Positions 2,150 to 59,344 of a stretch of DNA of 64,000 nucleotides are shown piece after piece. Both the position numbers and the translations under genes were made by a program. The stretch's first letter is position 1. Every line of letters begins with the position of its first letter. Under the pieces are notes generated by a model. The model did no database searches. It was not told the origin of the DNA and saw only the letters and a list, made by a program, of their open reading frames with translations. Source of the DNA: Leuctra nigra (lineage: Eukaryota > Arthropoda > Insecta > Plecoptera > Leuctridae); NCBI GenBank assembly GCA_934045905.1, contig OW203762.1, positions 22,290,345 to 22,354,344 on the forward strand. Reading direction: 5' to 3'.

Positions 2150-5100
2150 ATGCTGCGAGTAATTACAGTATTGTGCCTGGTTGCTGCGTGCTGGGGTAAG
2201 TCGAAATTTTGATAATATTTGAGGTGCTGATATTTAGTTTCAAGTTTTAGGAAGGTAATTAGAAACATATGTAACCTATATTAAATATGAAATTTAATAC
2301 AAACTGATAGTGAGCACAGACAAATTATTCCGGTAATCAGCAAATCGTATAAATAAAATTGATTATTACGTGATATACTTACGTTTAAGCTAAACCGTGA
2401 TAATACAGTTTTTAGTTCTCTATCTTCTCAAAATACGATACAAAGTTCAAGAAAAATCCTCCCTTTCAGAGCGTGGATTGAAAACTGATTTTGCCGGCTG
2501 ATTGTAAAACAAATGCACGTGGGTTTTCCGGTTTTTCTCAGAAATCACAGTGGAGTAGTTTATATTGTTGAGCGAGAGTCGAACGTCTTCTTTTCTCTCT
2601 TTTAGCACGGACCTGATTTTTAAATGTTTTTCGTCAGGTCGCAAAATTCTTCCAATCAAGCTGATATTTTGCACACTTTGTAAAGAAACTGCACACATTG
2701 AGCGAGCGAAGCGAGCGTCTCCTTTTGGCTCTTTTGGCATGGACCTCTGTTTTTTTTTTTTTTTCTGTTGGGTGACAGACAGTTCACAGTTTTTCTTCGA
2801 TCGAGCTGACATTTTGCACACATGTAGAGACAACCTTTTCTGTTTACAGACCCACATTTTTTTGAAATCCATTCATTGGTTAAAATTTAAACTAGGAAAA
2901 CGCTCAGTGTAACGCGTTGATGAGCGAGCAAGGGTATGTGCAAATTCTCGAACCGGAAATGCGTACACAACGCACAGAAAACATATACATCCATATTGAA
3001 TTGATTATGATATCAACTTAAAAGTGTACTATGCTTTTCATCGAAACTTTAAAATAGCATCTAAGCACCTGGTTCATAAAGCAAATCAGAATCAATTTTC
3101 AATTGGCACTGGAAAACATTCATTTCGATACTTCATTACTGACAGATATTAAAAATGTAAATAACTTTATACGTTCTTAACTGATTGGGATGAAATTTTG
3201 TAAAATAAGAGACAATATTGGTTTTAATGATCATGCAAAATATGAGTTTGATCAGAATTATCGAAGACCGTTTTCATTTTTCAGCCTATCAGGAGATATT
3301 TATTTAAATTTTAACCAATGAATCTGAGTAACGCGTTGATGAGCGAGCACGGATACGCGCAACACCTCGAACCGAAATTCTGTCTATCGAAAATGTCATT
3401 AAAAGCCAATAATTCTAAAATTTCGCCACAGATTTGTATAGAAATCTCAAAACATTCCTAAAATATTGGTCCAAATAACCATGCAAAGCTTTAAGTTGAT
3501 CGATTGAACCTTTATGATTGAACTGTTCCGTGTTAATTTTCAAAAATCACAGGATCTCCTTCAAAAAATATACATGAGACCACTCATATGATATAAGTGT
3601 GTCTACACAATATCAGATCGACTGTTAAACGGTCATTATCAGTTTCATATGCGTTTGAAAGTTTCTGCTCTAACTACCTTGCCTTGAACTGAAGAGTCGA
3701 AGTCGCCGTGAATTCGACAGCCAACACGCAAATAGTCCGTAAAATGTCAATAACGTTTGGATTTAAACACAGATTAGTATGAAAATTGTCAAAAATGCAG
3801 ATAATGTTGGTCCCAACCATCATGCGAAGTTATAAGTTGATCGTTCAATCGGTTATAGTTTAAATTTCTAAAAACACAGGAAAGATAGTTTTAAATTTTA
3901 ACCAATAGGAGGATTTGGCTGAAACTTTGTTTGATTGGGTACAATGTTGGGGGTAATGACTTGTCAAAATTTCAATTTGATCAAAACAACCAATCGAAAG
4001 TTAATTTTTTTTAAATTTGAACCAATCAATGGATTTCAAAAAAATTAGGGTCTGCAACAATCAGAAATGTTACGTACATGTGTGCAAAATTTCAGCTCGA
4101 TCGAAGAAAAACTCTGACCTGTATATCGTCAGTAACAGAAAAAAAAAAACAAACAAAAAAAAAAACAGAGGTTCGTTCCAAAAGAGCCAAAAGGAGACGC
4201 TCGCTTCGCTCGCTCAATAAACATCTCCTTAGGTTGAAAAATGAAAATGGTCTTCGATAAATCTGATCAAACTCATAATTTGCATGGTCAGTAAGACCAA
4301 CATTGTCTCTTATTTTACAAATGTTCATCCCAATCAGTTAAGAACGTATTAACTTATTGACATTTTTAATAGCTGTCAGGAATGAAGTATCGAAATGAAT
4401 GTGAAATGAATCTGATTTGCTTTATGTACCAGGGTGCTTAGATGTACCAGGGTGCTATTTTCAAGTTTCGATGAAAAGCATATACTTTTATGTTGATTGA
4501 GTGGATCATATTTCAATTCAATATGGATGCATAGGTTTTCTGTGCGTTGTGTACGCATTTCCGGTTCGAGAATTTGCACGTACCCGTGCTCGCTCATAAA
4601 CGCGTTACACTGAGCGTTTTCCTAGTAGATAGAAATAATTGATGATTTTCCCCACTAGGAATTAACAATATGTTAGGCTTGAGCTTGATTGTGTATAACT
4701 TCTAAGTGTATATTTGCAGCTACGCCTGTAATACGAAAGTCTGTGCCAAGGTTGGATGGCAGGATTGTTGGGGGAGAAGATGCAGACATAGTAACCTATC
4801 CGTATCAGGTAGGTAATCATTGTAAATATCACAACACAAATACAAAAACTTGAAAATATACTGCCTACACCTACACACCTACATGGATTTGGATTTAAAA
4901 GCACAGCTTTGTTAATTTTGTTAAATCCTTTTCGCATTCAAAATGCTTTAATCATTTCGTCTGCTACTGCCGCCAAGCTTCCGTACGAAACTATAACGTT
5001 GTGCCTGAATTTGAAATTAAAGAAGTCTACAAATAACAACAGAAAATCATACAAAAATTAAAAACTAAGTAAATATATTTATTTGCAAACTGAATAAGCA

Positions 5101-8100
5101 TATTTGTAATCTCTCTCTGGCCTCGTTGTTCTCGCTGCGCGCAGGAAGCTCTGTCCGAGGATCTGGCGGCACGCTGCACCTCACACACTCTCACTCTCTC
5201 TCTAGTTGTCGCTGATCAACTTGGGCTCCCACTCCTGTGGGGCTTCCATCATCAGCGTTGACTGGTGCATCACGGCTGCGCACTGCGCTGGAGGTCTGGC
5301 CTCGTTGTTCTCGCTGCGCGCAGGAAGCTCTGTCCGAGGATCTGGCGGCACGCTGCACCTCACACACTCTCACTCTCTCTCTAGCTGTCGCTGATCAACT
5401 TGGGCTCTCACTCCTGTGGGGCCTCCATCATCAGCGTTGACTGGTGCATCACGGCTGCGCACTGCGCTGGAGGTCTGGCCTCGTTGTTCTCGCTGCGCGC
5501 AGGAAGCTCTGTCCGAGGATCTGGCGGCACGCTGCACCTCACACACTCTCACTCTCTCTCTAGTTGTCGCTGATCAACTTGGGCTCCCACTCCTGTGGGG
5601 CCTCCATCATCAGCGTTGACTGGTGCATCACGGCTGCGCACTGCGCTGGAGGTCTGGCCTCGTTGTTCTCGCTGCGCGCAGGAAGCTCTGTCCGAGGATC
5701 TGGCGGCACGCTGCACCTCACACACTCTCACTCTCTCTCTAGTTGTCGCTGATCAACTTGGGCTCCCACTCCTGTGGGGCCTCCATCATCAGCGTTGACT
5801 GGTGCATCACGGCTGCGCACTGCGCTGGAGGTCTGGCCTCGTTGTTCTCGCTGCGCGCAGGAAGCTCTGTCCGAGGATCTGGCGGCACGCTGCACCTCAC
5901 ACACTCTCTCACTCTCTCTAGCTGTCGCTGATCAACTTGGGCTCTCACTCCTGCGGGGCCTCCATCATCAGCGTTGACTGGTCCATCACCGCTGCGCACT
6001 GCGCGGGAGGTCTGGCCTCGTTGTTCTCGCTGCGCGCAGGAAGCTCTGTCCGAGGATCTGGCGGCACGCTGCACCTCACACACTCTCACTCTCTCACTCT
6101 CTCTAGCTGTCGCTGATCAACTTGGGCTCTCACTCCTGCGGGGCCTCCATCATCAGCGTAGACTGGTGCATCACGGCTGCGCACTGCGCTGGAGGTCTGG
6201 CCTCGTTGTTCTCGCTGCGCGCAGGAAGCTCTGTCCGAGGATCTGGCGGCACGCTGCACCTCACACACTCTCACTCTCTCTCTAGTTGTCGCTGATCAAC
6301 TTGGGCTCCCACTCCTGCGGGGCCTCCATCATCAGCGTTGACTGGTGCATCACGGCTGCGCACTGCGCTGGAGGTCTGGCCTCGTTGTTCTCGCTGCGCG
6401 CAGGAAGCTCTGTCCGAGGATCTGGCGGCACGCTGCACCTCACACACTCTCACTCTCTCACTCTCTCTAGCTGTCGCTGATCAACTTGGGCTCTCACTCC
6501 TGCGGGGCCTCCATCATCAGCGTAGACTGGTGCATCACGGCTGCGCACTGCGCTGGAGGTCTGGCCTCGTTGTTCTCGCTGCGCGCAGGAAGCTCTGTCC
6601 GAGGATCTGGCGGCACGCTGCACCTCACACACTCTCACTCTCTCTCTAGTTGTCGCTGATCAACTTGGGCTCCCACTCCTGCGGGGCCTCCATCATCAGC
6701 GTTGACTGGTGCATCACGGCTGCGCACTGCGCTGGAGGTCTGGCCTCGTTGTTCTCGCTGCGCGCAGGAAGCTCTGTCCGAGGATCTGGCGGCACGCTGC
6801 ACCTCACACACTCTCACTCTCTCTCTAGTTGTCGCTGATCAACTTGGGCTCCCACTCCTGTGGGGCCTCCATCATCAGCGTTGACTGGTGCATCACGGCT
6901 GCGCACTGCGCTGGAGGTCTGGCCTCGTTGTTCTCGCTGCGCGCAGGAAGCTCTGTCCGAGGATCTGGCGGCACGCTGCACAACGCAGCCAGGAAAGTCA
7001 TCCACAACGAGTACGTCTCAGCCACGCGTGATTTCGACTTCGCAGTCATACAGGTAGAAACATTAAGTCGTAATGTTCATTCAATCTCAGTTTTCCATGT
7101 CCAAAATATTGATTCTCTGTGTATAGACGAGCTAAAAGTTGTTATAAAACTTTTACAGAAATATTTGTCATTATAGTTCTATTCATATAGCTTTACACTT
7201 ATAATAATAATTTCACCCTCCATGCACTGTGGAAAAAATGTCGATGCATTCTTTTCACAAAACTATGACTTAAATTCTGCAATTTAACCATATATTATTT
7301 TCTTGTAAGAATTAACTATAATAACAACTATACGAAAGTGTCAGAGCTATATTGTGTTCAATTAAAACGAAGAAATGTATGATACTACAAGAAATTATAA
7401 GATCAAAGCTCCTATTCTGGACAACAACGGTTGGCGTGAGGAAGGAAACCAAAGCTCTGCCGAAATAGTGCCTACGTGTTTTATTTTGATTTTACCAAAC
7501 CTAACGCATACAAAATGTACCAATAGTGTATAATCATTCATTTGTTCACATTGCATGGATCTTCTTTGCCATAGGGGAATAATTGGTACCCTTTCTGTAG
7601 GTGGATGGACCATTCATCTTCGAACTACCAGGAGTGAACGCCATCGCCCTGCCTACTCAGGGTGAAGATACTGTAGCTGGAACAATGGCTAATGCCACAG
7701 GCTGGGGTGCAACAGTGGTTCGTATATTTCATCTTCGGCGTTATCTGAAATGCTGGATTAGAAGATAGAGCTTTTGTTTAGAATAGAACATGTCAGAATG
7801 GACCATTTCTCAAGATTCTGTTCATCTTTCTTCATCTTTAGGTACGTTCATAGTTTGACCTTGAATATTTTTATTCGATTTTTTTAAATTATTTTTACTA
7901 ATGTAATTGTTAATAAAAATGGCTACGTTGACGTCTTCAGAACTGTTCAATTAAAATAATGTCGTAGTTTGAATTGGATTATTATAGTTTTTTTGGTCTA
8001 AAGACGCTTAGTGCCATATTTCTTACTAATTTTCAGGCACTAAACGTCTGAAGGACGTAAAATACATGTACGTTTTATTTTATTAATCCTGATCAAACTA

Positions 8101-10432
8101 TGAAATCATAGTACAGTTCTGAAGACGTCTATGTAGCCTTATTTTATTAACAATTACATTGGTAAAAGATAAAATAAAAATCCATTAAGAAACTCTTCAA
8201 GGTCATAACTAAGAATTTAATTCGGATATTATCGGAAATTCGGTGTAACAGTCACAAGTGTTGATGATCTGAGAATGTTTTATTTTATTTTATTGTCATT
8301 TGTAATTGAATTTAGTAGCTCTGCCGACCAGCCATTGTTGGTTTAGCGGGGCTACGTTGAAATTGTATAATAAAGAAAAATAAATTAAAACAAAATGTTC
8401 AGCGACAACAAGATTTCCACACAACGCGACTATTGGTTTCTCTTTGACTTCAGTCTGGAGGATCTCTTGCTACTCAGCTGCAAGTTGTCACCCTTCCCAT
8501 CGCCACCATGGAGGCATGTCGGGAAGCATACGGCGTCAACGACGTCAGCTCGAGGATGATCTGCGCCGGTGCGGCCGAGGGTGGCGTCGACTTCTGCAAT
8601 GTACGTTCTCGTCACCTCCTTTCAACATAGTTAGAGTGGAGTGCTCATGCGGATCAACTTTGGTCAGGGCCTCGGGAGGTTATTCTAAATTCCCTTGTTG
8701 TCTCTTATTGAGCGAGCGAAGCGAGCGTCTCCTTTTGGCTCTTTTGGCACGGACCTCTGTTTTTTTTCCGTTTACTGACGCTATACAGGAGGCCAATTTT
8801 TGAGTTTTCATGTTTTGAAACCATGTGTGGTTTCATTGTTTAAAACGTAAAAAAGTTGACAACTATTGCTTAGTCTTCAACTTTTTTACGTTTTAAACAA
8901 TGAAACCACACATGGTTTCAAAACATGAAAACTCAAGAATTGGCCCCCAGGTCAGAGTTTTTCTTCGATCGAGCTGAAATTTTGCACACATGTGGAGACA
9001 ACCTTTTCTGTTTGCTGACCCCTAATTTTTTTGAAAAAAATTGATTGGTTAAAATTTAAATAAACATCTCCTGATGGTAGGTTGAAAAATGAAACTGGTC
9101 TTCGATAAATCTGATCAAACTCATATTTTGGCTATACAGGTCAGTGTTTTTCTTTGATCGAGCTGAATGTTGTACGTTGTAAAACCAATTCATTCTCTGT
9201 TTGCATACCATAACGTTTTTTGAAATCCATTCATTGGTTAAAATTTAAATAAATAACTCCTGATAGGCTGAAAAATTAAAACGGTCTTCGATAATTCTGA
9301 TCAAACTCATATTTTGCATGATCATTAAGACCAATATTGTCTCTTATTTTACAAAATTTCATCCCAATCAGTTAAGAACGTATGAAGTTATTGACATTTT
9401 TAATATCTGTCAGTAATGAAGTATCGAAATGAATGTTTTCCAGTGCCAATTGAAAATTGATTCTGATTTGCTTTATGAACCAGGTGCTTAGATGCTATTT
9501 TAAAGTTTCGATGAAAAGCATACACTTTTAAGTTGATATCATAATCAATTCAATATGGAGGTATATGTTTTTGTGCGTTGTGTACGCATTTCCGGTTCGA
9601 GAATTTGCACGTACCCGTGCTCGCTCATCAACGCGTTACACTGAGCGTTTTCCTAGTCAATTGATACGGCGCACTACCATGTTAAATAGATACCGTTTCA
9701 AGTGAAACGAGACGACAAGGCAATTTAGAATAGCCCTCCTGGGGTCCTATTCTAGAGCAGCTAAATTCCAAATTCTGATGGAATTTGTTAATTCTTATGG
9801 CAGTGACCGGATTCCATCAGAATTGAATTGGGAAAACGTTCTAGAATAGACCTCCTGATCTCTTGGACAACAATGAAATGAACATTAGCACATATCAGTT
9901 TTCTTCGACCTTAGTAGGTATAAAGCAGATACATTAATTGTACAAAAGTAATAATCAGTAAATTACAGAGTTTATCATTAGATCAGAGAATTCAAATGGG
10001 AAGATGAAGGCATTTAATTAAAGGGACAGAAAACAGATTAAAGTAGACCAAGGCCCTACTTGACGAAATATTAATAATTTCAGGGTTCCCACAGGGGATT
10101 GTCTTGGGTCCATTAATATGTATCTTGTTTATTTTATCAGATGGATTGGATGATTAATGTGACTTTGATAATTCATAAATAACAGTTTAAAGATGACTGC
10201 AAATAAATTGTGTACGCAAACCCGTCTAAGAGTGCTCAATGTTGTTTGATGTTGAAGTACAATGGCGTTGAATTGATTTGTTCAGGGTGACAACGGTGGT
10301 CCGCTCGCTGTTGACGGCGTCCTCATTGGAATCGCCTCCTGGGGAAGCAGTTGCGGTGTCCCTAACTTCCCAGGCGTCTATGCAAAGGTGTCCTTCGTCA
10401 GGACCTGGATCCTGGACACTACAGGAGTTTAA
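2150..10432 (+). CDS. Trypsin-like serine protease homologue A, catalytic Ser replaced by Asn
   Basis: Six exons: 2150-2195, 4720-4808, 6829-7053, 7601-7717, 8454-8600, 10286-10432, giving 256 residues, the usual size of a secreted S1A protease. A signal peptide (MLRVITVLCLVAACWG) is followed by a propeptide ending in R before IVGG, the classic activation site. The His motif is TAAHC in exon 3, the Asp lies in DFDFAVIQ at the end of exon 3, and the S1-pocket Asp189 is in VDFCN at the end of exon 5. Exon 6 reads GDNGGP instead of GDSGGP, so the nucleophile is missing while everything else is intact. It should fold and be cleaved but not hydrolyse peptides by the normal mechanism. The intron 4 donor (GTTCGT at 7718) is weak. 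The intron 2 acceptor chosen is the tenth of a tandem array; the nine earlier ones lead to stops. Introns 1, 4 and 5 are full of repeats. Alternatives are a recent pseudogene or a sequencing error. Confidence 0.85.
2698..4625 (+). mobile_element. Helitron-like repeat, interrupted by a second copy
   Basis: The 5' end is TTGAGCGAGCG after an A. The 3' end has a CGCTCA stem-type motif, a loop containing AACGCGTT, TGAGCG, then TTTTCCTAG followed by T. The outer element is 2698-2891 plus 4218-4625 (about 602 bp); a second copy in reverse orientation occupies 2892-4217. No coding capacity is seen, so it is non-autonomous. It lies in intron 1 of protease gene A. Confidence 0.6.
2892..4217 (-). mobile_element. 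Nested Helitron-like repeat in reverse orientation
   Basis: It starts CTAGGAAAACGCTC and ends CGCTCGCTCAA, the reverse of the family termini. The flanks TTTAAA and TAAACATC join without duplication. The related copy at 8708-9656 has the uninterrupted TTTAAATAAACATC near 9054-9067, so the insertion fell between A and T. An internal second 3'-like motif near 3330 (TAACGCGTTGATGAGCG) suggests it is itself composite. Confidence 0.65.
5117..6981 (+). repeat. Tandem array of the intron 2 / exon 3 acceptor junction of protease gene A
   Basis: A partial unit is followed by ten acceptor-plus-exon starts at 5206, 5385, 5564, 5743, 5922, 6107, 6286, 6471, 6650 and 6829. Spacing is 179 bp, or 185 bp where an extra CTCTCA is present. 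A unit is the last 26 nt of intron 2 (pyrimidine tract plus TAG) and the first 153 nt of exon 3, which encodes the TAAHC active-site His. No donor is seen within units. Reading on from any of the first nine copies crosses the intronic 26 or 32 nt, shifts frame and ends at TGA after Ser-Cys-Arg. Only the tenth copy continues into the rest of exon 3. Copies are nearly identical. Confidence 0.95.
7845..8215. mobile_element. Foldback MITE in intron 4 of gene A
   Basis: Two arms of roughly 180 bp form an imperfect inverted repeat around a centre near 8030. Shared blocks include AATGTAATTGTTAATAAAA, GACGTCTTCAGAACTGT and a central TTTCAGGCACTAAACGTCTG. The same family is found at 13362-13732 in intron 2 of gene B. 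No open frame. Confidence 0.7.
8708..9656 (+). mobile_element. Complete Helitron-like repeat
   Basis: Termini are TTGAGCGAGCG (after A) and TGAGCGTTTTCCTAG (before T), with a 6-bp stem CGCTCA/TGAGCG around AACGCGTT just before the 3' end. It lies in intron 5 of gene A and carries a nested foldback at 8790-8947. It also supplies the empty site that defines the insertion at 2892-4217. Confidence 0.65.
8790..8947. mobile_element. Small foldback MITE nested in the Helitron-like repeat
   Basis: The arms (about 8790-8861 and 8876-8947) are almost perfectly complementary, for example CATGTTTTGAAACCATGTG against CACATGGTTTCAAAACATG. It is flanked by CAGG at 8786-8789 and 8948-8951, a likely 4-bp target duplication. 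A sister copy of the repeat at 9133 onwards has CTATACAGGTCAG uninterrupted. Confidence 0.7.
9735..9860. repeat. Imperfect inverted repeat in intron 5 of gene A
   Basis: TCTAGAGCAGC and AATTCTGATGGAATTTG near 9750-9790 pair roughly with ATTCCATCAGAATT and TTCTAGAATAG near 9810-9850. Probably an old foldback element. Nothing else is seen between 9657 and 10285. Confidence 0.4.
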
Positions 10433-11515: not shown

Positions 11516-14500
11516 ATGCTGCGTGTGAGCATTGTATTGTGCCTGGCTGCGGCCTGCCTCGGTAAGTCAAGTCACGTGTGAGCATTGTATTGTGTCTGGC
11601 TGCGGCCTGCCTCGGTAAGTCAAGTCACGTGTGAGCATTGTATTGTGCCTGGCTGCGGCCTGCCTCGGTAAGTCAAGTCACGTGTGAGCATTGTATTGTG
11701 CCTGGCTGCGGCCTGCCTCGGTAAGTCAAGTCACGTGTGAGCATTGTATTGTGCCTGGCTGTGGCCTGCCTCGGTAAGTCAAGTCACGTGTGAGCATTGT
11801 ATTGTGCCTGGCTGCGGCCTGCCTCGGTAAGTCAAGTCACGTGTGAGCATTGTATTGTGCCTGGCTGCGGCCTGCCTCGGTAAGTCAAGTCACGTGTGAG
11901 CATTGTATTGTGCCTGGCTGCGGCCTGCCTCAGTAAGTCAAGTCACGTGTGAGCATTGTATTGTGCCTGGCTGCGGCCTGCCTCGGTAAGTCAAGTCATA
12001 TGTGAGCATTGTATTGTGCCGGGCTGCGGCCTGCCTCGGTAAGTCAAGTCACATGTGAGCATTGTATTGTGCCTGGCTGCGGCCTGCCTCGGTAAGTCAA
12101 GTCACGTGTGAGCATTGTATTGTGCCTGGCTGCGGCCTGCCTCGGTAAGTCAAGTCATATGTGAGCATTGTATTGTGCCTGGCTGTGGCCTGCCTCGGTA
12201 AGTCAAGTCACGTGTGAGCATTGTATTGTGCCTGGCTGCGGCCTGCCTCGGTAAGTCAAGTCACGTGTGAGCATTGTATTGTGCCTGGCTGCGGCCTGCC
12301 TCGGTAAGTCAAGTCACGTGTGAGCATTGTATTGTGCCTGGCTACGGCCTGCCTCGGTAAGTCAAGTCACGTGTGAGCATTGTATTGTGCCTGGCTGTGG
12401 CCTGCCTCGGTAAGTCAAGTCACGTGTGAGCATTGTATTGTGCCTGGCTGTGGCCTGCCTCGGTAAGTCAAGTCACGTGTGAGCATTGTATTGTGCCTGG
12501 CTGCGGCCTGCCTCGGTAAGTCAAGTCACATGTGAGCATTGTATTGTGCCTGGCTGCGGCCTGCCTCGGTAAGTCAAGTCACGTGTGAGCATTGTATTGT
12601 GTCTGGCTGCGGCCTGCCTCGGTAAGTCAAGTCACGTGTGAGCATTGTATTGTGCCTGGCTGTGGCCTGCCTCGGTAAGTCAAGTCACGTGTGAGCATTG
12701 TATTGTGCCTGGCTGCGGCCTGCCTCGGTAAGTCAAGTCACATGTGAGCATTGTATTGTGTCTGGCTGCGGCCTGCCTCGGTAAGTCAAGTCTCATGTGA
12801 GCATTGTATTGTGCCTGGCTGTGGCCTGCCTCGGTAAGTCAAGTCACGTGTGAGCATTGTATTGTGCCTGGCTGTGGCCTGCCTCGGTAAGTCAAGTCAC
12901 GTGTGAGCATTGTATTGTGCCTGGCTGCGGCCTGCCTCGGTAAGTCAAGTCACGTGTGAGCATTGTATTGTGCCTGGCTGCGGCCTGCCTCGGTAAGTCA
13001 AGTAATTTTGAACTTGTTATACACTTTGTAACCAACGGATTCTGAATTGCTATTTCTGTCAGGTGGCCGAGTTACCAGAACCAGACCTATGCTGGATGAT
13101 CGGATTGTTGGAGGAGCTGAAGTCAACATCACTGAAATCCCCTGGCAGGTAAAGAAATCTTCCCTTCATCAGTGGCCAGGGACATGACATGATATTTATC
13201 CCTTTCAGACCCAGGCAAAAAAAAATCGCAGATTTTTGGATTTTTTTTTCCTGCCAGATGATTAAGTTTTAAGAGTTGTGACACATCCAAAAAGATTGTT
13301 TAGTTCATATACATCGATAATCAACAGTTGAGTTGTTAGATTTTCTACACAGATACACAGATGAGTAGTGAGAGCGGTCTTGAAAAGTTTTTCAATCGAA
13401 TTTTTTTCAATATCTTTTACCAATGTAATTGTTGATAAAATAAGACTTTGTACGAGTCTTCAGACTTGTTCAATAAAAATAATACCAAAGCTTGGAATGG
13501 TGTACTAGTTTTATTTGTCCTACTAGTGCCATATTTTTTACTAATTTTCAGGCACTAAACGTCTGTAGGACAAAATAAAACTAATACACCATTCCAAGCC
13601 ATGAAATTATTTTCATTGAACTGTTCTGAAGACTCGTACATAGCCGTATTTTATCAACAATAACATCCTAAAAGATATTGATCAATATCGATTAAAAAAC
13701 TCTTCACAGTCAAACTCACTACTCATCCCCTCTAACGCTGCGAACGGTGTTGTCATTGGTTCTAGCTGTCGTTCACCTGGCTCGGCTACCACGCGTGTGG
13801 GGCCTCCATCATCAGCAACGACTGGGCTCTCACTGCTGCGCACTGCTGCGCTGGATATCCCATCACTGACTTCGAGCTGCGCGCGGGCAGCTCGATCCGC
13901 GACGCAGGAGGTTCGCTGCACGAGCTCGCAGAGATGATCGTACATGAGATGTACGACGACTTCCTGTTGGACTATGACTACACACTCTTGAGGGTAACGT
14001 TTATCTTATTCTCGACAAGAACAGGCTTACATAATGTCGACATCTTGTGCCGAAGTAGAGTTGGTTTTAAATGTTCAAAATAAAGTAAGCTTTTAAATAT
14101 GTTTAACAATAAGATATCCAAGGTATAAACACAGAAGTAGAAAGATCTATACCGATGTATGTTTGACATTTTTCAAAGAGTACAGAACGAAAGAATTCTT
14201 GATCCTCATTTCAGTCTTCTTGACACCTCTTTTAGAAAGATGTGATCAAAACAAGTGCAATCTGTCAGACACGTCTAGTTTCGCAAGAGAAGGAATCTTC
14301 CATCATCCAATCTATGAAAAGTATGCAATTATTCTCTCTGTGCAGGTGGCGACGCCGTTTGTCTACGGACCTGGCATTGCTCCCATAGCTCTTCCTGCTC
14401 AAGGACAAGACACGGATGCTGGAGTCCTGTCAAGGATCTCTGGATGGGGAACAACTTCGGTCAGTACATCACTCGAAAGAGAGCAATATATCAAAATAGA

Positions 14501-15694
14501 AAGATTCTAATCGAAATGAATATGCTTTGTTGTCACTGTTTTTGAGATCAGTAAGTACGGAATAGACAAAGAGTTCACCCAAGGAAGGAAGAATAATATG
14601 TTACCCTAACTTTCACCATCAAAGGAAAGATTAGGCTAGGGAAAGATTAGAAGATCACTGGATCAGAATAACCTTACACAATCTTTCAACTCACTCAAAT
14701 GTCTTTTGGTTATATGGAACTTATTTCTCTCTGTTCTCCTTATGAGAAAGCAAATCCTCGTAAGGAAGAGGAGGCACTTTGAGTGAGGCCATTTGAGTTT
14801 GAGTGATTTGAAGACGCTACCATTGCCCATTCCTGAGGATTTATTGAGAGTGTGCACCTGCTTGCAGGATAATCTATAATATTAAACAGCTGAACTGCAA
14901 TTAGTGATGTGTGTAATTTTCAGTACGAGGGAGAGCTATCTGATGTACTGCTCGAAGTGTATCTTCCAGTCAGCACCATCCAGTACTGTCAGGATTACTG
15001 GAGTGTGGAGTGGGTGACTCCCAGGATGATCTGCGCTGGAGAACCCGCTGGAGGCATCGACTCCTGTCAGGTAATCCTTCACATCCTTGACGATGTATGA
15101 CGTCACATTTATTGTATTTATTGTTTTTCCGGGGGGGGGGGGGGAAGGGGGCTTAACGTCGTACTGTTCTGCAGCGAGGATAATGGCGACGGATGAATGA
15201 TTATGATGATGATTGGGAGATGATGGTGAAGAGTAGGTAAGGATAGAAAGTGGGAAGGAGGCGGTCGTGGCCTATTAGTATTAGTACCTTCCCAGCATTT
15301 GCCTGACGACTGAGGGAATACCACGAAAAAAACCCAGTCAGGAAGGACGGCCGCGGAAATCGAACCCGGGCCTCCGGAATACAAGTTCAGTGCGTTACCA
15401 CTCAGCCATACCTGTTCCGTGACGTCACATATTGTTATCTAACACGTGTTTATGTCACAGGGTGACTCGGGCGGCCCCATGGTGGTGGACAATGAGCTGG
15501 TTGGAATGACGTCACATATTGTTATCTAACACGTGTTTATGTCACAGGGTGACTCGGGCGGTCCCATGGTGGTGGACAATGAGCTGGTTGGAATGACGTC
15601 ATGGGGTGAAGGATGCGCGTGGCCAGACACTCCTGGAGTCTACGCGAGAGTTTCCGCTGCCAGAGACTGGATCACGGCCAACTCTGGAGTCTGA
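11516..15694 (+). CDS. Trypsin-like serine protease B
   Basis: Six exons: 11516-11561, 13063-13148, 13766-13993, 14346-14459, 14924-15070 and 15548-15694, giving 255 residues. The signal peptide is [17 protein letters not shown] short propeptide ends in DDR before IVGGAEVN. The triad is complete: TAAHC in exon 3, Asp in DYDYTLLR at the end of exon 3, and GDSGGP at the start of exon 6. IDSCQ before GDSGG supplies Asp189, and SWGEGC then PGVY are as in trypsins, so cleavage after Lys/Arg is expected. It is secreted and probably digestive. Exon 1 uses the first of 28 tandem donors; exon 6 uses the second of two duplicated acceptors, because the first gives a stop (HIVI then TAA). A tRNA-derived SINE sits in intron 5 and a foldback MITE in intron 2. 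Residue assignments are by alignment in the head to standard trypsin numbering. Confidence 0.92.
11523..13003 (+). repeat. 28-copy, 53-bp tandem array of the exon 1 / intron 1 donor junction of protease gene B
   Basis: Units start every 53 bp from 11523 to 12954. Each contains 39 nt of exon 1 (the hydrophobic core of the signal peptide) and 14 nt of intron 1, including a GTAAGT donor. The ATG at 11516 is only in front of the first copy. Reading past the first donor gives a stop (TGA) at the start of the second unit, so later donors cannot give protein. Units differ by single substitutions (for example GGCTGTGGCC, CATGTGAG, CATATGTGAG, CTCAGTAAG), showing that this is an aged array and not a simple read error. 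Confidence 0.96.
13362..13732. mobile_element. Foldback MITE in intron 2 of gene B
   Basis: Ends GATGAGTAGTGAG and CTCACTACTCATC are inverted. Inner arms share ACCAATGTAATTGTTGATAA, TGGAATGGTGTACTAG and related blocks. It is the same family as 7845-8215. Confidence 0.75.
15109..15419 (-). mobile_element. tRNA-derived SINE, copy 1
   Basis: On the minus strand the head reads TGGCTGAGTGGTAACGC (Pol III A box), then GGTTCGATTTCC (B box) about 40 nt later, within a Leu/Ser-tRNA-like head. The body contains a GATGAT-rich stretch and the tail is C- and A-rich, ending at the G run at 15131-15143 on the plus strand. TGACGTCACAT occurs at 15098-15108 and 15420-15430 and is a likely target duplication. 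A second copy is at 20042-20315. Confidence 0.75.
15420..15601 (+). repeat. 87-bp tandem duplication of the intron 5 / exon 6 acceptor junction of gene B
   Basis: Copies are 15421-15507 and 15508-15594, each with 40 nt of intron (through TTATGTCACAG) and 47 nt of exon 6 ([15 protein letters not shown]). The 8-mer TGACGTCA sits at 15420, 15507 and 15594, exactly at the boundaries, in intron and exon alike. That microhomology can explain the duplication. Reading from the first acceptor reaches TAA 23 codons later; the second acceptor is open to the end. Confidence 0.93.
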
Positions 15695-18322: not shown

Positions 18323-25088
<6,766 letters not shown>

Positions 25089-38326: not shown

Positions 38327-41300
38327 ATGGGTTCTAAGAAGCATAAGAAACATAAATCAGAAAGAAGAGATCGCTTTGAAGGTAAATTTTGCACGATTAA
38401 TAGATATACGGAATAATATTGACGACGGCATAAAAAGTTATTCTCAGACCAAGAATGCACCTAGAGACACAATGTAAAACCAAGTTTTCATCTTAAATCA
38501 TTTCTTAAAATTATCGACTGTCTATTGTAAGTAGAACCTAAGTTATTCTGTTGTATTGTTATTATTTTCAGAGAAGCAATTTGGAGTAGACAAACCTCCA
38601 GCACTAAAGCTTATCTTCAAGGTAGGCAGTTCATCAACCCCGGAGCACAGCAGCGACTCCCCTGGTCCAGCCTCTGTTCCAGTGGGACTTTCGGGGATAA
38701 ACTATAGCGTAGCTCCAACAACAGGAGACGAAGAATCCAGACACTCGACGGCTTCGTTTCACGCCAGAGATGAAGCACATCTTGAAAGACAACACAAGAA
38801 AGCGAAAAAGAAGAAAAGAAAGAAAGAAAAGGACAAAGATCGAGAGAAGCATGAAAAGAAGCATAAACACCATCATAAAGAGAAACGTAAGCGGCCTCGA
38901 GAAGAGTCAAGTCAGGATGATGTGAGTATCGGAGAGGAATCTTTATTGGAAGCACCAGCTCCAAAACGTAGGCCAATTGAAGGTAGTAATGTTTTACTCA
39001 AGACGGCGCTTCGTGAGCCAATGCATATCGCCACGAACTTGGGGCTTCTGTCAGCTGCAAACTTGTCGCCTACAAACGCATCCGGATCAAGAGAACCGCG
39101 CTCGTGCGTATTGAGACAACGCCAGGAGCGTTCTGCTCTACAAAAGCTGTGTGATTATTTACTAAAGGGCTTGGAGAAGAGAGATCCTCAACAATTCTTC
39201 GCTTGGCCAGTCACAGATCACATTGCACCTGGATACTCGCAGATCATCAGTCAACCGATGGACTTCAGCACAATGAAGCAGAAAGTGGATGACAATCAAT
39301 ATCCAGTTCTCAACGACTTTATTGTACGTATATCATTATATTGCTTGTTTGATGTTTCCTCAGAATAATTGTTAATAATACGGCATATTTTAACTCATAA
39401 TTTTAACTTAATGGCAACATTCAAGTACATACCTACATAATATAATTAATTGGGTACATTTTCAGCAGAATTTTCCTGTAAATGTAGACAAATTAAAAAT
39501 CAAAATGGCATAGAAAAAAATATGTATTTATCATATTACGCTTATTCAGTTACTAGGTGCCTATTTTTGGTGATGCCCAGTGAAGAAAATAAACTACCTA
39601 CGCCTTCTCAATATTTTCTTTTAGACCAATGTTAATCTCTGAATTTTTGTAGACTATCTTCCAATTCTAAAAAGGTTTCCATAATAATGTGCAAGATAGC
39701 ATGGTGTTGTGCCCAAACTCACTTCAGTGGTGATCTTCAATTATATATTTGTAATTACAGGATGACTTCCGACTAATGTGCAACAACGCCATGGCTTACA
39801 ACCACCCCGAGACGATATACTACAAAGCTGCCAAGAAGTTGCTGCACGTGGGCGTGAAGGCGATGACACCTGACAAGTTGAAGCTGCTCCGTCCCGTGAT
39901 CACGTACATGGGGGAGATCAGTCGCGAGGAGCTCGGCTTCGATCTCGGCTACGAGGAGGTGGTGATGTCAGCACCAGGAAGCATTCAGACGGAAGCCAGC
40001 GAGGAGGTGGTGCCAGAGGAGGGGGAGGATGCCATGGAGGTGTACAAGGAACATCGGAGAAAGATGAGGGAGGCCAGTCGCCCTCTGTGAGTAATTTTAA
40101 TAGCATTGAATTTAAATTCACCATACCCTACTAAGTGTAGATTTGGAAATTACTATATTTCAATTGATTTTTGAAGTAGATTTGTAAGTATGTTTATAAA
40201 ATTTTTGGACATTCCAATTATAAAACTAGGTAGGTAGGTACACTTGGCCAAACAAAACTTGAACGTTCAATAAATCTGATAGGCTGATGTAAGATCGCAC
40301 CATCAGAAGTCAGTCTAAGCGATCTCATTGTCTCACTCTAGTAGGTGATCTCACATTTCAATGATAATAACAAGCTTTGATTGGTTATGGGACATGACCA
40401 GCAGTCATTCAAATTTGGTCAATGTTCAAGTTTTGTTTGGCCGAGCGAGTGTAGGTACCTACCTATACAAAACACTCTAGGTGTAGGTAACCTAATTGGT
40501 TCACTTTGTACAGTTTGCAGGCAGATTTTCAGCATGAACATGCCTACACTTGTAAAGTTGTAATGTTTCCTTGTCATAAAAATGTGAATTATTCTCTTCT
40601 TTGTGGGACATGACCTCTTTCACCCATAGATTTAATTGGCTGCTGAATTGAAATAATTGTTTACCTTGAGTCGGGATAATATCCATAAATGCAGATTTCA
40701 GTCAATATATTTTTATTTTATTTAAAAAAAAATATTCTATTAAATTAATTAATAACTTCTCTCTTCTAATATCAGTGGAAAGTTTGAGGCCATTCCGGAC
40801 GACCTCTCACCGAATCAGATCTTGGTGCAAGCTCAACGTGCTGCCAAGGCCGCTGCCGACCGACTCTCACTGAAGCGAGCCAACAGCAAGATGGGTTTCT
40901 TGCGGCAGCGCAAGGACGGCAGCACTTCTCTCGCCATCCTGGTGCCGGGCAATGGAGTCGCTCCCGGCACCAACGAGCAGCCGGTGTCGCTGGGAGTTCT
41001 CACCGGGAAGTTGACTCACGGCACGGGACAGCTCCAGGGATTCAGAGAAGATCGACGGAACCTGGCCAAGACCGTCAAGCCACTCTATTACGGGGCTTTT
41101 GGCTCATATGCTCCGTCTTACGACTCCACGTTTGCCAACCTCACCAAAGAGGAGTCAGATCTCGTATATCAAACATATGGAGACGAGACGGCTGTTCAGT
41201 ATGCAGAGAGGTTAGTAGACTATGAAGCTATGCTATGAGTTAGTGCAGTGAAATTGCTTGTATGAGTAGAGCTATGTATTATTAAATCATGCTTTATATT

Positions 41301-43824
41301 TTGGAAATTCTGTTATAAGATCATATTTTCGCTCGAGTTCTATACTTGGATATCTCCAAAAAACAGGATTGTATTTGTTTTTGTTATAGACACCACAACA
41401 GGATTCTTCTTTGGATTTGGTGTTACATATTGATGATGCCTGAAAACATATTGACTTGGGTTAGCCAGTTGAAACGACCTAGGGTAGACAGTTAGTAGGT
41501 CTAACTGAGTGGTCTCACTTCGCAGTCAAGGCTGTGGCGAGGGGTGGATGAGGTTGGGTAGGGGAGGGACTGAGAAGTGGAGGTAGACACAGGTTTTGTC
41601 TGTTGTATTTGGTGTCTTGTCCGCAGTCAAGTTCTGTCTCTTGAAAATTAAAAACACACACTTGAATCTTATCAGTACCTACGTTGATAGAAACCAAAGG
41701 TATAAAACCGCGTTTATAACAACTTAACGTTCGAAAATTAATAATTATCGTTTCAAAATTAACGGAATTCCACTTTCCTTCACAACCACTTAGGAAACAT
41801 AACATACACACAGGTAAAACAAGATGGCGCCGTCCAGCGCGATCAGCTGTGATTTAGAGGTGAGAGAAGTGTCCGTGCGCATGCACCACTTTCTCCACTT
41901 AAAGTTCAAACTAAGAAGTTGAGGGTAGGTATTTCAACTTAAGTTGAAATTGGCTTATGTTAGGTAATTTTCAGATTAAGTTTTGAGCAAATACATAAGT
42001 TTATATGGGCTTGACAATTGAAATTGCGTTAATTTTGCTTAATTTTCAAACGTTAAGTGAATGTAAACGCAACTTATCACGGCCATTTCGCTAAAATAAT
42101 TCAATATCGTAATTCTTGCGCTTGCAGTATTTTGGACTTCTCAAAAGACTGCGATTACACTCTGACGATGGTCGACAATCTGTTGGACCTGCTGACAAAT
42201 GGCGAGCACCGCAGAACGAAGAAGGTCCTGGACGAAAAGCGGCGTCTGCGCGAGGAAGAGGAGCGGGTTCAGCAGCTGATGGAGGAGCGGCCGGTTGTCG
42301 AGGAGAAACCAGTCGAGTCGTCCGGACACCACGACGTCAAGATCGATCTCAACTCGTTGAAGACCTTGGCGGAGTTTGGTATAGACATGACTTTTGTGGA
42401 TGTTTATGGTGAGTATTGAATAATTGTTTAATTCATGTAGACCCAACAAATTTCTGACAAAATCATAAAGTTAGCTTCCATATTAGTTGATTTCATTAAG
42501 ATATAAATGGTGCTACACCACTTTTAAATGTCATGTCAACCAACTTTTGTCTAGGAAAATAGCATCATTAACATGAAATGTAACACAGAGCAAGAACCGA
42601 ATATCTTCAAAACCGACGTTCTGATTAAACAGAAACTCATAAACATTGTTCTTGTTGCAATTCACCTCATTTTATGTGCAATAAGATTTTTTTCCTTCAC
42701 TCATCCACCTAATTGCAGAATTCTTCTAACGCTGTGAACTCTTATGTTTCTAGAACAAGAGAAACAGAGCCACGAAGAGCGATGTGTAGCGAATGAAGAG
42801 ATGCAGTCTCAGTTGAACCAGACCTCGGATCTCCTGCAAAAGCTTCAGCAAGTGCAGAGCGACCGGTTGAGTTTAGCGCCGCCGGCACATCTGGCGCACG
42901 TGCCGCAACCGTCGGACAACGAAGTCCAACTGGGTGAGTTGTGTTGGATGTCTTTAACTAGAACAATAAAAAAGTTAAAACTCCATTTCAGTTAAACTAT
43001 GGAGTATTTTGGGAATGTAATTTCTACAGAATATAGTGGGTTTTTTATACGCTGCTGATTTCTCATCACAGAATTATAGTTGAGTGAATGAACAGCCCGA
43101 AGTTGCATATTATAATGTATCTCCAGCAAAACATTGAATTTTTTTAGCATGTTTGTGGCCGTGTGGCTCATATTTTAGATTTGTGATGAAATAAGATTGA
43201 GAATTATGGTTTCTCACTGAGGAAAACTGCCATGGAGTCAGGATGTTAGGAAGGGATGTGCGTTGTGAAAAATATCCGACTAAATCGGGGCTCTAATCGA
43301 ACTGGGGCATTTTTCACAATGCACATTCTGCCTAAAGGTAAGAATATTTGTAAATTGTAATGCATGGATTACTAAACAAACGGTGCAAAAGTTTATTAGT
43401 AAGATGGAGAGATACTGTTTGCTAATGAATGTATCTTTGTCCTTTAGCTGAGAAGATCACAGCAAGTCTGAAGGACATGAGCAAGAAGGTGCCTCCAAAC
43501 GTCATCGCATCGATGCCAGCAATACGCAAGGCGATGGGCATCAATCCGGAAACCTCCCCCTCCAGTCCCGGTTCGCCAGGGGAAGTGATGGAAGTGGACG
43601 AAGACTCGACCAACCAGCAGAGCAAGATGGAAGAATCCATCCCGAGCGATCCGATGGTCGACGTGGAGGGTTCATCGTCGCAGGCAGAACCCGACGATGA
43701 CGCAGACGTCGGCGTTCCGGACTTCGAGTCTGAACTGCGGGAGTTCTTGGAGAGCGAACCGGCTTTGAGCAATTCGCCGTTGCATGACGATACAACCATC
43801 ATGGAGATTTTATCGGAGTCCTAA
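38327..43824 (+). CDS. Bromodomain-containing protein of the BRD7/BRD9 family
   Basis: Seven exons: 38327-38381, 38572-39323, 39761-40086, 40776-41210, 42128-42408, 42754-42933 and 43448-43824, consistent phases, 801 residues. N-terminus MGSKKHKKHKSERRDRFE, then a Lys/Arg/His-rich stretch (about 85-125, nuclear signal). The bromodomain spans about residues 200-320: HIAPGYSQIISQPMDFSTMK, then NNAMAYNHPETIYY, where the Asn of AYN (N283) is the acetyl-lysine-binding residue. The following segment (KFEAIPDDLSPNQ to the KTVKPLYYGAFGSYAPSYDS block) fits the BRD7/9-specific domain. A coiled-coil-like Arg/Glu stretch (RRLREEEERVQQLMEE) and an acidic C-terminus (FESELREFLESEPAL) follow. Family members are SWI/SNF subunits that read acetylated histones. 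Intron 3 holds a MITE. Longer than human BRD7 or BRD9. The BRD7-or-BRD9 split cannot be decided here. Confidence 0.93.
40230..40450. mobile_element. MITE of the TACACT-TIR family in BRD7/9 intron 3
   Basis: TACACTTGGCCAAACAAAAC at the left is inverted near the right as GTTTTGTTTGGCCGAGCGAG. Nearly the same interior is found inverted at 52021-52246. Confidence 0.75.
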
Positions 43825-48600: not shown

Positions 48601-49239
48601 CCGCGTGTTGTTGTAAAGCCCACTCCCAGGCCCAAAGCGGACCTGATGTTATAATATTTTACTGTGAACTTAGTTTGGAATGAGTTTGGAATGTTTAGAG
48701 TCGATTACTCCTATATACCAATAAAATAAGACATGGGATTTATGTGCATACATAATGATAAAAAATGAAAGAAGTGATATTTGCAATCAGAGGATCTAAA
48801 TTTTTCATTAAGGTTCAGTCATAACTCAGTTTGTTATGATTGTAGGTATTGCATCGTTTATTTGGATTTGTCTGAAAACAAGCTCAGATGACAAGCTCGA
48901 GCCCCATGGCGTTGTTGTGATGGAATGGTGGTGATTAATATTTGAAATACTACAGTGTTGGGGGACCTGTCTATTGTGCACAGCATAATGAAATTTCCGG
49001 GGAAGCTCATACGTAATCTAAATTTAGTTAATCGATTACTCTTACAACCGCTTCTAAACCTGATTATCGGTAAGTGTAATTAGGTTTGCCGTCCGTGTAT
49101 GCGATTAGTTGCCTAGTTTAGCGCCAGGTGCGTGGTCATTAGCTCATCATCATGGCTCACTGGCGCCAGCTAGAGCGCCAGCAGGTGCAGCCATTGCATT
49201 GCATCGTCACCACCCGAGATGTCGCTGAACGTCTCACGT

Positions 49240-49700
49240 ACTCGCTACTCGTCGTCCCGGCTCGCTACTAGGTCGCCCGCGCTCGCTACTCGTCGTCAGT
49301 GCTCGCTACTAGGTTTCCCGTGCTCGCTACTAGGTCGCCCGCGCTCGCTACTCGTCGCCCATGCTCGCTACTGGGTCGCCCGTGCTCGCTACTAGGTCAC
49401 CCGTGCTCGCTACTCGTCACCCTTGGTCGCTACTAGGCGTCCTTGCTCGCTACTAGGTCATCCGTGCTCGCTACTAGGTCACCCGTGCTCGCTAATCGTC
49501 ACCCTTGGTCGCTACTCGTCGCCCGTGCTCGCTACTCGCCGCCCGTGCTCGCTACTCGTCGTCCGTGCTCACAACTCGTCGCCCGTGCTCGCTACTCGTC
49601 GTCTGTGCTGACAACTCTTCTCCCGTGCTCGCTACAAGGTCGCCCGTGCTCGCTACTCGTCACACTTGGTCTTAACTCGTCGTCCGTGCTCGGTACTTGT
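49240..49700. repeat. 20/21-bp minisatellite
   Basis: About 22 units built on GTGCTCGCTACTCGTCGCCC (20 bp) or with TACTAGGTCGCC (21 bp). The mixed unit length keeps shifting frame, so the arginine/serine-rich ORFs across it are not genes. Confidence 0.9.
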
Positions 49701-52020
49701 CTTGTATTCCGTCGAAAAAAAAGGAATACTATGTGGACCCGTCAGTAAGACCCGTAACTGAACACAAATATAGTTTTCTCTCGACTCCACCGGCCTCCTG
49801 TCCATAGGACCTATAAAAACCTACCATAGACACATAGTTTCATTCTTAAAACACATGTACAATTTGCACTAAGCTATTTCACTCAGATGGTGTAGCAGTT
49901 TTTTTTTATATACCTACTCGAATTTATAAAAAGGCTGAACCTAGATGTTTGGGAAAATGTGATGCAACTTGATTACTTTTTATTCCTGACTCTTTAACTC
50001 GCAAACGGATACATTCAGATGCTAAACTGGAGGAAACAAAACTTTTATTCATCTGACAAACACAGTGTATTACGTACGATTTCAATTTAAAATATCCTAC
50101 CTCTGCCACCAATTGTAAAATCCACAAACAAGAAAACTACGAAGTCCAGAGATTTGTAGAATTCTACCCGAAGTGCAAAATCTGCTGAAACAATTACCAA
50201 ACGCTCCATTCGAGAATTCTGTTACCGAATATAAAATAATCTTCCCTACCATCACCCACATAAGTATGAAATGCGCAAGAACTTATCTTACAACAAAGCA
50301 AGGAGCCATCGCACTAAGGAATATACCACCTTCACGGATTTATACTAGATTCAATTTAGATTCGCTCGGGAAAGCGCTCGAGATTCTCTACCCTCTTCTC
50401 TACAGCTGTGCCGACGGAAGATAAAACTGATGTAGGACGATAATGTGGGGTTTAAAACCTCGCTGGTGAAACTTGAAGAACCCGTTCCTCACACACAGGG
50501 ATGACGATGTGAAGATAACAACTGATTAACTCTGCGCCGTGCGTTCACATTTCCTCCCGCTACAGATTCATCCCTTAACGTTCGCCGTTTGATGAATGAG
50601 ATAACAATATTTGCAGAAGAGAGTCAGGAGCGACGCGTTAAGTGCGTTCGCCAATCAGATGACTCGGTGATTGGAATTCTCCTGGCACGAAGCGAAACAC
50701 GGCTTCGTATTGGTTAACAATCGCAATCTTCACCCCTGACGCCGTACTCAACGGCGAACTTCAGTTTTGCTGATGTGAGTATGTTTAGTTTGTCATAGAG
50801 CATCAGAAAAATTAGTTGGAATTATCAAATAGATACATTTGTACCAACTATTTAATTAAAGCGAAGAGTAAAATAAAATATGTATTTTTTAATGCAAGCC
50901 TTCAAATGCATGGAAATAATATAAATAAGTATAAAAATCAGGTAAAACGAAGAGACCGATCTTTCTAGAAAGCAATAGAGGCAAATGCAAATAATAGTGA
51001 GTAGTCTTTTGTGATAAAAGTGAAGTAACCCATGACTTTCTTTCACTTGTAATGGAAATGAGAGAGATTTAAGCCATAGGTAAGTTCTGAAATAATCGTT
51101 CCCAAGCAAAATCCTAATTATAGTTGTATGTAGAATTGATTTTCCTCAATTCATATTTTAGTAGGTGCTTAATGATGAATAAACTTATTAACTTTTTATG
51201 AACATTTCTAAATTCTAAAGGCAATGGGTAAAATGGATTGAATTCAATTAGAACGGTAAACAATTAGACTTGTCAGAGCAGAGTGTACAGCACAACAAAT
51301 TATAAAATGAAGATTAAGAAGACTTATTAATAATTATCCACAACTTTCATTCCAATCCAACATCTTCCTGCCGCGTATTTCTTGAAAACTTCGAACACTA
51401 ACTTAATAACATCCCACACAATTCTAAAATGCATTTGAATGTTGAAACTAATTAACCTAGCCTCGTGTAGGTTTGAGTGCAACACCAACTCTGGGGAGTT
51501 GTCTTGTGAAAAGTCTTGAGAAGTTAAATGAGTTAGAGTTGTAGACAGTGCTGAGTGCAATGGGGTGGAGGTGTGAAGTTGACATCGTGTTATAGTGTCG
51601 GGAAGGGAGCCGTGCAGTGAATTACAATATGAAAAGAACGCGGGACATGTTTCATTCTTCCAGGGATATTATTCACGCACACTGGAGATGGAGAAGATTA
51701 ACTCAACTGGTGTGAACAGAAGAGGGAGGGAAATGTTTCTGTTTCACGTGAGCTTGATGGCGCCTCTCTCTTTGCCTTTCTTGACACTTTCAGCTACTAA
51801 AGTACCCTCTTGGACAGGAATGTGAATAATTTAAAATAGAGTGACAATCTAATATTTTAGAATCTACAATGAAATTACAAAGGGGGTTTCAAAACTGTGA
51901 CATCCACAAAATGACACCGGGTTGAAACAAGCATCAATACAGACCACCAATGGTATGTACTCAACAGAATTGTAACTTATTACTACCAAATATAATAATA
52001 CTTTACTCAAAAAGCTTCAT
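49701..52020. other. Region without a recognised gene
   Basis: Open frames at 50173-50424 and 51595-51825 show no domain or signal peptide that I recognise. No repeats of note. Confidence 0.35.
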
Positions 52021-52246: not shown

Positions 52247-52383
52247 GAAATTTAAGAAGTTTTCGACATCATGTGCAACAGTTTCTGTCAAACAAAGCAG
52301 ATTATTCGGTAGAAAAATAACTACAGAGGATCATCGAGTAGAGCAGTTATAGACTAGAGCAACATTATATAAAGTATGAAATA

Positions 52384-53170
52384 CTATTCGCAGACGATCA
52401 GGTGGTTCTTGCTGAAGATGAACACGACGCAGAATACATGATGAGAAAGCTTATAGAAGAATACGATTCCTGGGGCTTAGAAGTGAATATGGATAAGACT
52501 CAATGTATGGTCATTGGAAGAGAGGGTCAAGACATGGTAACCGATAAAGGTATTATAAGATTAACAACAGAGTACAAATATCTAGGTGTGACATTGACGG
52601 CTGACGGAACGGATGAGAGGGATGTGCTGAACAAGCTGGGCAGAGGAAGAGCGATCACCAGACAATTACACCCAGTGCTTTGGAACGATGTCATCTCAAC
52701 CAAGACAAAAACACGTATTTACAACTCATTCGTCGAAAGCTGCGCTTCCTATGGATCAGAAATCTGGACCTTATCTTCCCGAATGGCACAAAGAGTCCGA
52801 GCAATGGAGATGGGGTACTGGAGAAGATGCTGCAAGGTTACGATACTCGACCATGTGAGGAACGACCGTATACGGGAAATGATGGGAGTGGAGACATCAC
52901 TGACGGATTACATAGAGATGAAGCAACTCTTATGGTATGGCCATCTGAGAAGGATGCCAGATGAAAGATTGCCAATGAGATCCTGGTCATGGGTACCGTC
53001 AAGAAGAAGGAAGAGAGGAAGACCAAGGAGGAGGTGGGCAGAAGGAGTTGACACTGCCATGAGAAGAAGAGGTCTTCGCGATGGAGACTTCTTAAATAAA
53101 GATAAATGGCATTTAGGATGCAGAATACGGCCTGAAGTGCTGTAAACAATCTGCTTTAATAATAATAATA
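52384..53170 (+). mobile_element. 5'-truncated non-LTR retrotransposon, reverse transcriptase C-terminal half
   Basis: The frame begins LFADDQVVLAEDE, so the catalytic FADD box is at the very start and everything upstream is missing. It continues through VNMDKTQCMVIG, YKYLGVTLTADG, IYNSFVESCASYGSEIW, a KQLLWYGHLRRMPDERLPM block and an Arg-rich RGRPRRRWAEGVD near the C-terminus, stopping at 53143-53145. An AAT-type tail ends at 53170. ATGAAATA at 52376-52383 and 53171-53178 is a likely short target duplication. Open over about 760 nt, so young, but dead for lack of the N-terminal half. Confidence 0.88.
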
Positions 53171-58911: not shown

Positions 58912-59047
58912 GAAGAAGAAGAAGAAGAAGAAGAAGAAGAAGAAGAAGAAGAAGAAGAAGAAGAAGAAGAAGAAGAAGAAGAAGAAGAAGAAGAAGAAGA
59001 AGAAGAAGAAGAAGAAGAAGAAGAAGAAGAAGAAGAAGAAGAAGAAG
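58912..59047. repeat. GAA microsatellite
   Basis: About 44 uninterrupted GAA/AGA triplets. The long poly-leucine frame on the minus strand is its by-product. Confidence 0.95.
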
Positions 59048-59344
59048 CAGATGAAAGCGGTGTAATTTCACGATTTTCACTGCCCTCTAGGTCGTAAACG
59101 GCATGACTGGTTGTTGTCGCGTGATGTATAATATGTTGTTAGGTGGGCCATAGCTCAAAATTAAGACATTTCACAACAATGAGAGATTTTCCATTGTTGA
59201 GATCCAGTTGGCCGAAAATGCTATGTTGTTGCTTACAGTAAAAGTAGTTGGTCTGCTCCTCAGTTTATATAGGCATTTACGGTATGTTGAGTGACTGTGA
59301 GTGTACGGTAAGACTTGGCTGAGTGGAGCGACCGCTCCACTAGA

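Follow-up and report, generated by a model that had tools for sequence, protein, structure and literature searches.

The trypsin gene g2 of Leuctra nigra carries 28 nearly identical copies of a complete 5' splice site at the junction between exon 1 and intron 1, and only the first of these donors yields an mRNA encoding the protein. The array is probably (about 0.6) a junction-spanning minisatellite in which the exon-side donor is chosen, with leakage to later donors. The window, i.e. the whole stretch of DNA that was analyzed, comprises 64,000 nucleotides, and positions are counted from its first letter. The genes and junction-spanning repeats of the trypsin cluster described below are all located on the forward strand.

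Anatomy of the donor array

Tandem Repeats Finder identified a 53-bp array at positions 11522-13003, with 28.0 copies, 97% matches and 0% indels. The GT dinucleotide of donor k is located at position 11562+53(k-1), placing donor 28 at 12993. The GTAAGT motif is kept in 28 of the 28 units, and the donor sequence from -3 to +6 is TCGGTAAGT in 27 units and TCAGTAAGT in unit 8. If the register starts at 11522, each unit consists of 40 nt of exon and 13 nt of intron; if it starts at 11523, of 39 nt and 14 nt, as proposed in the first-pass annotation of this DNA, whose description of a 28-copy array of complete 5' splice sites is also confirmed. Each unit thus contains an exon end and a donor, head-to-tail, as in the 31-bp variable number tandem repeat (VNTR) of the human CBS gene, and an array containing a whole exon-intron junction in every copy is no chance match. 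Short tandem alternative splice sites of the NAGNAG and GYNNGY types are separated by a few nucleotides. Assignment of the g2 array to this category was ruled out by its spacing of 53 nt.

Comparison of the units with their consensus revealed differences at 23 of 1484 positions (ca. 1.5%). The variants were scattered and partly shared among units, with T at position 29 in seven units and A at position 2 in six. CpG dinucleotides held 16 of the 23 differences. Counting distinct sites of the unit, four of the six CpG positions were variable versus five of the other 47 (P = 0.005). This excess suggests decay of methylated cytosine and might point to cytosine methylation of this locus in the germline. 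Reading of the codons indicated that one of the seven variable exonic positions was silent, versus 27-33% expected under neutrality; the six amino-acid-changing positions fit what would be expected of non-coding DNA, although seven positions are too few to prove or to exclude constraint. A trace of segmental growth, in which neighboring units would be more alike, was also sought, and no signal was detected (1.37 differences between neighbors versus 1.44 in shuffles, P = 0.36).

Coding capacity of g2 and consequence of donor choice

Exon 1 of g2 (11516..11561, 46 nt) starts with the ATG, encodes the signal peptide and ends in phase 1; it contains the only copy of the repeated exon end with an ATG in frame. 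Intron 1 (11562..13062) is 1501 nt long if donor 1 is used and 70 nt long if donor 28 is used, its acceptor AG ending at 13062. Exon 2 (13063..13148) encodes the propeptide and the IVGG motif at the start of the mature enzyme. Exons 3 to 5 (13766-13993, 14346-14459 and 14924-15070) encode the His57 and Asp102 regions, and exon 6, starting from the second of two acceptors (15548..15694), encodes the Ser195 region and contains the stop codon. Joining of the six exons generates an intact 255-residue trypsin, with GT and AG at five of five introns. The protein matches the Pfam Trypsin domain (PF00089) with 198 bits over residues 30-249, and its residues 30 to 253 align to the hepatopancreas trypsin 2f91 with conservation of the His, Asp and Ser motifs (TAAHC versus TAGHC, DYDYTLL versus DNDISLL, and DSCQGDSGGP in both). 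On the basis of the domain and of the residues that we take to be His57, Asp102, Ser195 and Asp189, g2 belongs to the trypsins of peptidase family S1A, and tryptic activity is predicted. The array is therefore located in a trypsin gene, as the first reading had proposed. In a protein search with g2, none of the 120 best of 7172 matches exceeded 50% identity, indicating that no product of g2 was among them; the best full-length matches reached 49% (Anabrus simplex) and a partial Periplaneta protein reached 50%.

Use of donor 1 leads to a first stop at codon 256. Use of any of donors 2 to 28 (27 of 27) leads to a first stop at codon 22, because each longer exon 1 includes the first unit boundary (...CAC GTG TGA), and the in-frame TGA at 11579..11581 is present in every mRNA generated from these donors. 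The first-pass annotation correctly predicted that only donor 1 gives the protein and that a TGA results from all later donors, but placed the latter after 22 codons; it is itself codon 22 and is preceded by 21 sense codons. Six ATG triplets lie wholly within the array, all of them with TGA as the next codon. Based on the reading frames and on this ATG-TGA context, synthesis of a trypsin with a signal peptide is therefore possible from donor 1 alone. Polyadenylation signals (AATAAA or ATTAAA) were not found in intron 1 of g2, and inspection by eye of the 53-bp donor array revealed no acceptor.

Comparison with the closest paralog

The closest paralog of g2, designated g3 (18323..25088), is intact, encodes 256 residues and has a first intron of 88 nt. 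Tandem Repeats Finder listed no tandem repeat over any of the ten splice sites of g3. A 24-bp repeat present in 3.1 copies (24240-24313) starts 3 nt downstream of the first base of its intron 5, leaving the splice site outside. Comparison of g2 and g3 gave a dN of 0.11, a dS of 0.54 and a ratio of 0.20, indicating that the pair evolved under constraint. This ratio covers the whole time since the genes split and cannot show that g2 has been working since the array arose.

The 70-nt intron defined by donor 28 of g2 was aligned with the 88-nt first intron of g3. The score was 18.0, versus 5.9 ± 3.5 for 1000 shuffles in which the splice signals were kept, the fraction of shuffles scoring as well being 0.001. 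This likeness indicates that the array grew from one ordinary junction, an ordinary short first intron of g2 having reached 1501 nt through repeat expansion.

Acceptor repeats in the same cluster

The trypsin-like gene g1 (2150..10432) encodes 256 residues and its frame is intact, with Asn replacing the catalytic Ser195. GDNGGP is found in the segment 10286-10432, where GDSGGP is expected, and the product should be a non-catalytic trypsin homolog. This gene contains a 179-bp array present in 10.4 copies (5116..6981). A polypyrimidine tract, an AG and the first portion of exon 3 are found in each of ten units; the partial copy at the left end has no acceptor. The acceptors are spaced by 179 bp (seven times) or 185 bp (twice). 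The last acceptor, from which exon 3 extends over 6829..7053, is the only one giving the 256-residue protein, since the nine earlier ones lead to a stop at codon 108 (seven acceptors) or 110 (two acceptors).

In g2 itself, an 87-bp segment spanning the intron 5 acceptor and the first part of exon 6 is present in 2.1 copies (15420..15601), the two units being 99% alike. Use of the first acceptor would lead to a 229-residue protein devoid of the normal C-terminus. The sequence TGACGTCA is present at both edges of the 87-bp unit, as expected of a microhomology event; edge microhomology was not seen for the 53-bp array. In their anatomy and frames, g1 exon 3 and g2 exon 6 are both tandem acceptor duplications of the type exemplified by human CBS 844ins68. 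Taken together, three junction-spanning repeats are present in two genes, and in each of them anatomy and frames designate the exon-side copy as the working one and the extra copies as intronic. The pattern recognized by the first-pass annotation thus holds for the donor array and was incomplete, the ten-acceptor array of g1 and the duplicated exon-6 acceptor of g2 having been missed.

The exon parts of the g1 units (5206-6981) vary almost only silently, although nine of the ten units should be intronic. Eight positions are variable in the 153-nt exon part, of which seven are silent, versus 27-32% expected (P = 0.0007-0.002). The unit at 5922 codes for Ser where the other units code for Cys. 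Because of the silent bias, the variants seem to come from sequence under coding constraint; candidate sources would be alleles or a paralogous gene contributing to the array, or recurrent copying of the functional last unit.

Five tandem arrays with a period of at least 50 were detected in the window, and three of them contain a trypsin splice site. Placement statistics were all run post hoc, the pattern having already been seen. Random placing of whole arrays gave an expectation of 1.1 of five with a trypsin splice site (P = 0.07 for the window) and a P of 0.14 for the three arrays within the cluster, neither being significant. Random placing of single units, which we consider the appropriate model for the initial duplication event, gave a P of about 0.001 for three of five straddling a trypsin splice site.

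Other features were recorded elsewhere in the window. Tandem repeats comprise a 118-bp array in 6.6 copies (57314-58083), a 20/41/62-bp array with stops in all six frames (49230-49702) and a GAA trinucleotide tract of 48 copies with 97% matches (58912-59055; Tandem Repeats Finder). An open frame of 267 codons (52342-53145) resembles, by eye, the terminal part of a reverse transcriptase from a non-LTR retrotransposon. A gene similar to that of bromodomain-containing protein 7 is present at 38535-42419. Its best named matches are polyneopteran insects (Periplaneta, Bacillus, Schistocerca and Gryllus). A composite of this gene showed identities of 71 and 68% to two other entries, which came nearest, followed by 70% to Periplaneta, 69% to Bacillus rossius and 66% to Schistocerca.

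Splice-site choice and alternative explanations

Pairing with the 5' end of U1 was computed for the two donor sequences rather than copy by copy, giving -9.3 kcal/mol for TCGGTAAGTCA, equal for 27 donors, and -5.6 kcal/mol for unit 8. Donor strength was rejected as the selector since donor 1 is no better than the other -9.3 kcal/mol donors. RNA structure was also rejected, as the predicted probability of the 9-nt donor being unpaired ranged from 0.002 to 0.052 over the 28 copies, with 0.012 for donor 1. In view of the equal U1 match and predicted accessibility, position must therefore decide, if donor 1 is chosen.

From these data we infer the following scenario. The array would have originated from a tandem duplication of a segment covering the 3' end of exon 1 together with the beginning of intron 1, followed by spread via unequal exchange or slippage. 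Each unit would bring its own donor, so that the copies after the first would be intronic and spliced away whenever the exon-side, i.e. cap-side, donor is used. The exons of the trypsin genes present here do not exceed 228 nt, and, given the use of donor 1, 14 of the 15 introns are longer than 300 nt. Short exons and long introns favor exon-based recognition. Donor 1 would be used most of the time as the sole donor bounding a short first exon, with the help of the cap-binding complex, which in human and yeast is reported to enhance U1 binding at the donor nearest the cap (PMC4889658) and would, by analogy, have the same effect in this insect. Some leakage to later donors would generate mRNAs with the stop at codon 22. 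Preference for the exon-side copy would likewise account for the tolerance of the acceptor array of g1, with its ten units, and of the duplication at exon 6 of g2.

Several considerations argue against a strict rule of this kind. In duplication experiments, the intron-proximal site is often the winner. Intron definition could prefer donor 28, whose 70-nt intron is close in length to the 88-nt intron of g3, and donors 2 and 3 may also be near the cap. Downstream repeat units of IFI6 have been reported to act as donors (PMC4526556), and donors other than the first of a repeat can therefore be used.

If a late donor were mostly paired with the acceptor at 13062, mostly unproductive mRNA would be generated, one of the two outcomes put forward in the first-pass annotation. 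The array would then have crippled g2, which would be an incipient pseudogene. The length of the intron defined by donor 28 is compatible with this possibility, g3 could cover the function, and the exon-6 acceptor is duplicated as well. We regard such a loss as rather unlikely since g2 has kept its six exons, its reading frame and its splice sites in intact form. This argument is weak, however, because an array whose units diverge by only about 1.5% may not be old enough for decay to have become visible. Use of later donors might instead be set by copy number, the mRNAs with the codon-22 stop being wasted or decayed and trypsin output being tuned accordingly. The same early stop is generated by 27 of 27 later donors, and the six units in which ATG is followed by TGA would add minimal reading frames to the long-exon mRNAs. 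In human CBS, a higher number of boundary-spanning VNTR copies was reported to accompany decreased activity and elevated homocysteine (PMC5188458), and the reported use of downstream IFI6 units points in the same direction. A graded effect could nevertheless exist without selection, and g3, the nearest paralog, is devoid of such an array; tuning of this type is conceivable, although we do not expect it. A broader proposal extends this idea to the cluster as a whole. Junction-spanning arrays would be a recurrent selected device, the length of a donor or acceptor array setting the share of productive splicing for each digestive protease, with copy-number mutation providing fast heritable tuning; the 28 U1 sites, being close to the promoter, might also act on transcription. 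We consider this proposal improbable.

The remaining explanations question the array itself or its location in an intron. Tandem arrays are classic trouble spots of assemblies, and the copy numbers (28 in g2 and 10 in g1) might have been inflated or the arrays misassembled. This is quite improbable since the units display scattered and partly shared variants rather than exact stuttered copies, the 53-bp array contains no indels, and three junctions with different periods are affected. Initiation of transcription inside the array, which would make the units promoter or 5' untranslated sequence rather than intron, was named as a general possibility in the first-pass annotation. We found no support for it and hardly give it credence. 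The in-frame ATG with its signal peptide lies at the array's upstream edge (11516), each of the six ATGs within 11522-13003 directly precedes a TGA, and a putative TATA-like GATAAAA, identified by eye ca. 80 nt 5' of the ATG, is common to g2 and g3. Preference for the exon-side donor with leakage is the reading that we consider probable.

The g2 array is known in kind and extreme in degree, and the set of three repeats is more interesting than the donor array alone. Twenty-eight near-identical donors are found in one gene and ten near-identical acceptors in the adjacent one, every site being accompanied by flanking exon sequence of its own. As sequence strength is nearly constant, the locus offers a natural test of position alone (cap side, exon side and distance to the partner site), a question usually addressed with a few engineered duplications. 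The locus also indicates that a large junction array is compatible with an intact frame, since the extra copies fall into the intron.

Comparison with known systems

The first-pass annotation knew of no described gene with such a donor array. The human CBS 31-bp VNTR and the IFI6 minisatellite, as they are described in the sources cited below, precede it, and the present observations extend the occurrence of such repeats beyond human genes, to a protease gene cluster of an insect. Our literature search, which covered titles and abstract openings, retrieved neither a donor or acceptor array in any insect gene, nor a ten-copy acceptor array, nor donor and acceptor arrays side by side. Exon-4 duplications have been reported in an earthworm metallothionein gene, and the accessible part of that report describes no donor or acceptor array (PMC12783039).

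For the acceptor repeats, the relevant system is human CBS 844ins68, a 68-bp duplication comprising part of an intron-exon junction. Splicing is reported to strongly favor the distal copy, with removal of the upstream exon piece (PMC2630376, PMC1334203). PMC2630376 uses the term 'splice donor' for this duplication although the junction is that of intron 7 and exon 8, and the title that it cites refers to 3' splice site selection. The geometry, as reported, is that of g2 exon 6 and, in principle, of the g1 acceptor array, with the difference that 844ins68 adds one extra copy whereas the g1 array comprises ten.

The units of the IFI6 minisatellite are short, 12 nt in about 26 copies. The minisatellite of this gene (also known as 6-16 or G1P3) supplies multiple splice donors, according to the title of Turri, Cuin and Porter (1995) (PMC4526556), a feature shared with g2. 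Two downstream repeat units are reported to be used as donors, resulting in three mRNA species (PMC4526556). The alternative donors of IFI6 are said to yield protein isoforms, whereas the later donors of g2 lead to an early stop.

Judging from the descriptions available, the closest match in anatomy to the g2 array is the 31-bp VNTR located at the exon 13-intron 13 boundary of human CBS (Lievers et al. 2001), designated c.1444_1467+7(16_21) (PMC2630376, PMC5188458, PMC1395315). We take this name to describe a unit of 24 exonic and 7 intronic nucleotides, repeated 16-21 times; a donor would then be present in every unit. Like the g2 array, the CBS VNTR consists of tandem units spanning an exon-intron boundary and differing by single bases (PMC2630376). 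It differs from the g2 array in that its units are of 31 rather than 53 bp, in being polymorphic where g2 is represented by one assembly, and in that exon 13 is described as non-coding (PMC5188458), in contrast to the signal-peptide exon of g2. An increase in the number of CBS repeats is reported to result in lower CBS activity and raised homocysteine (PMC5188458). The idea that copy number could tune expression, put forward in the first-pass annotation, thus already has a human counterpart, as reported for CBS.
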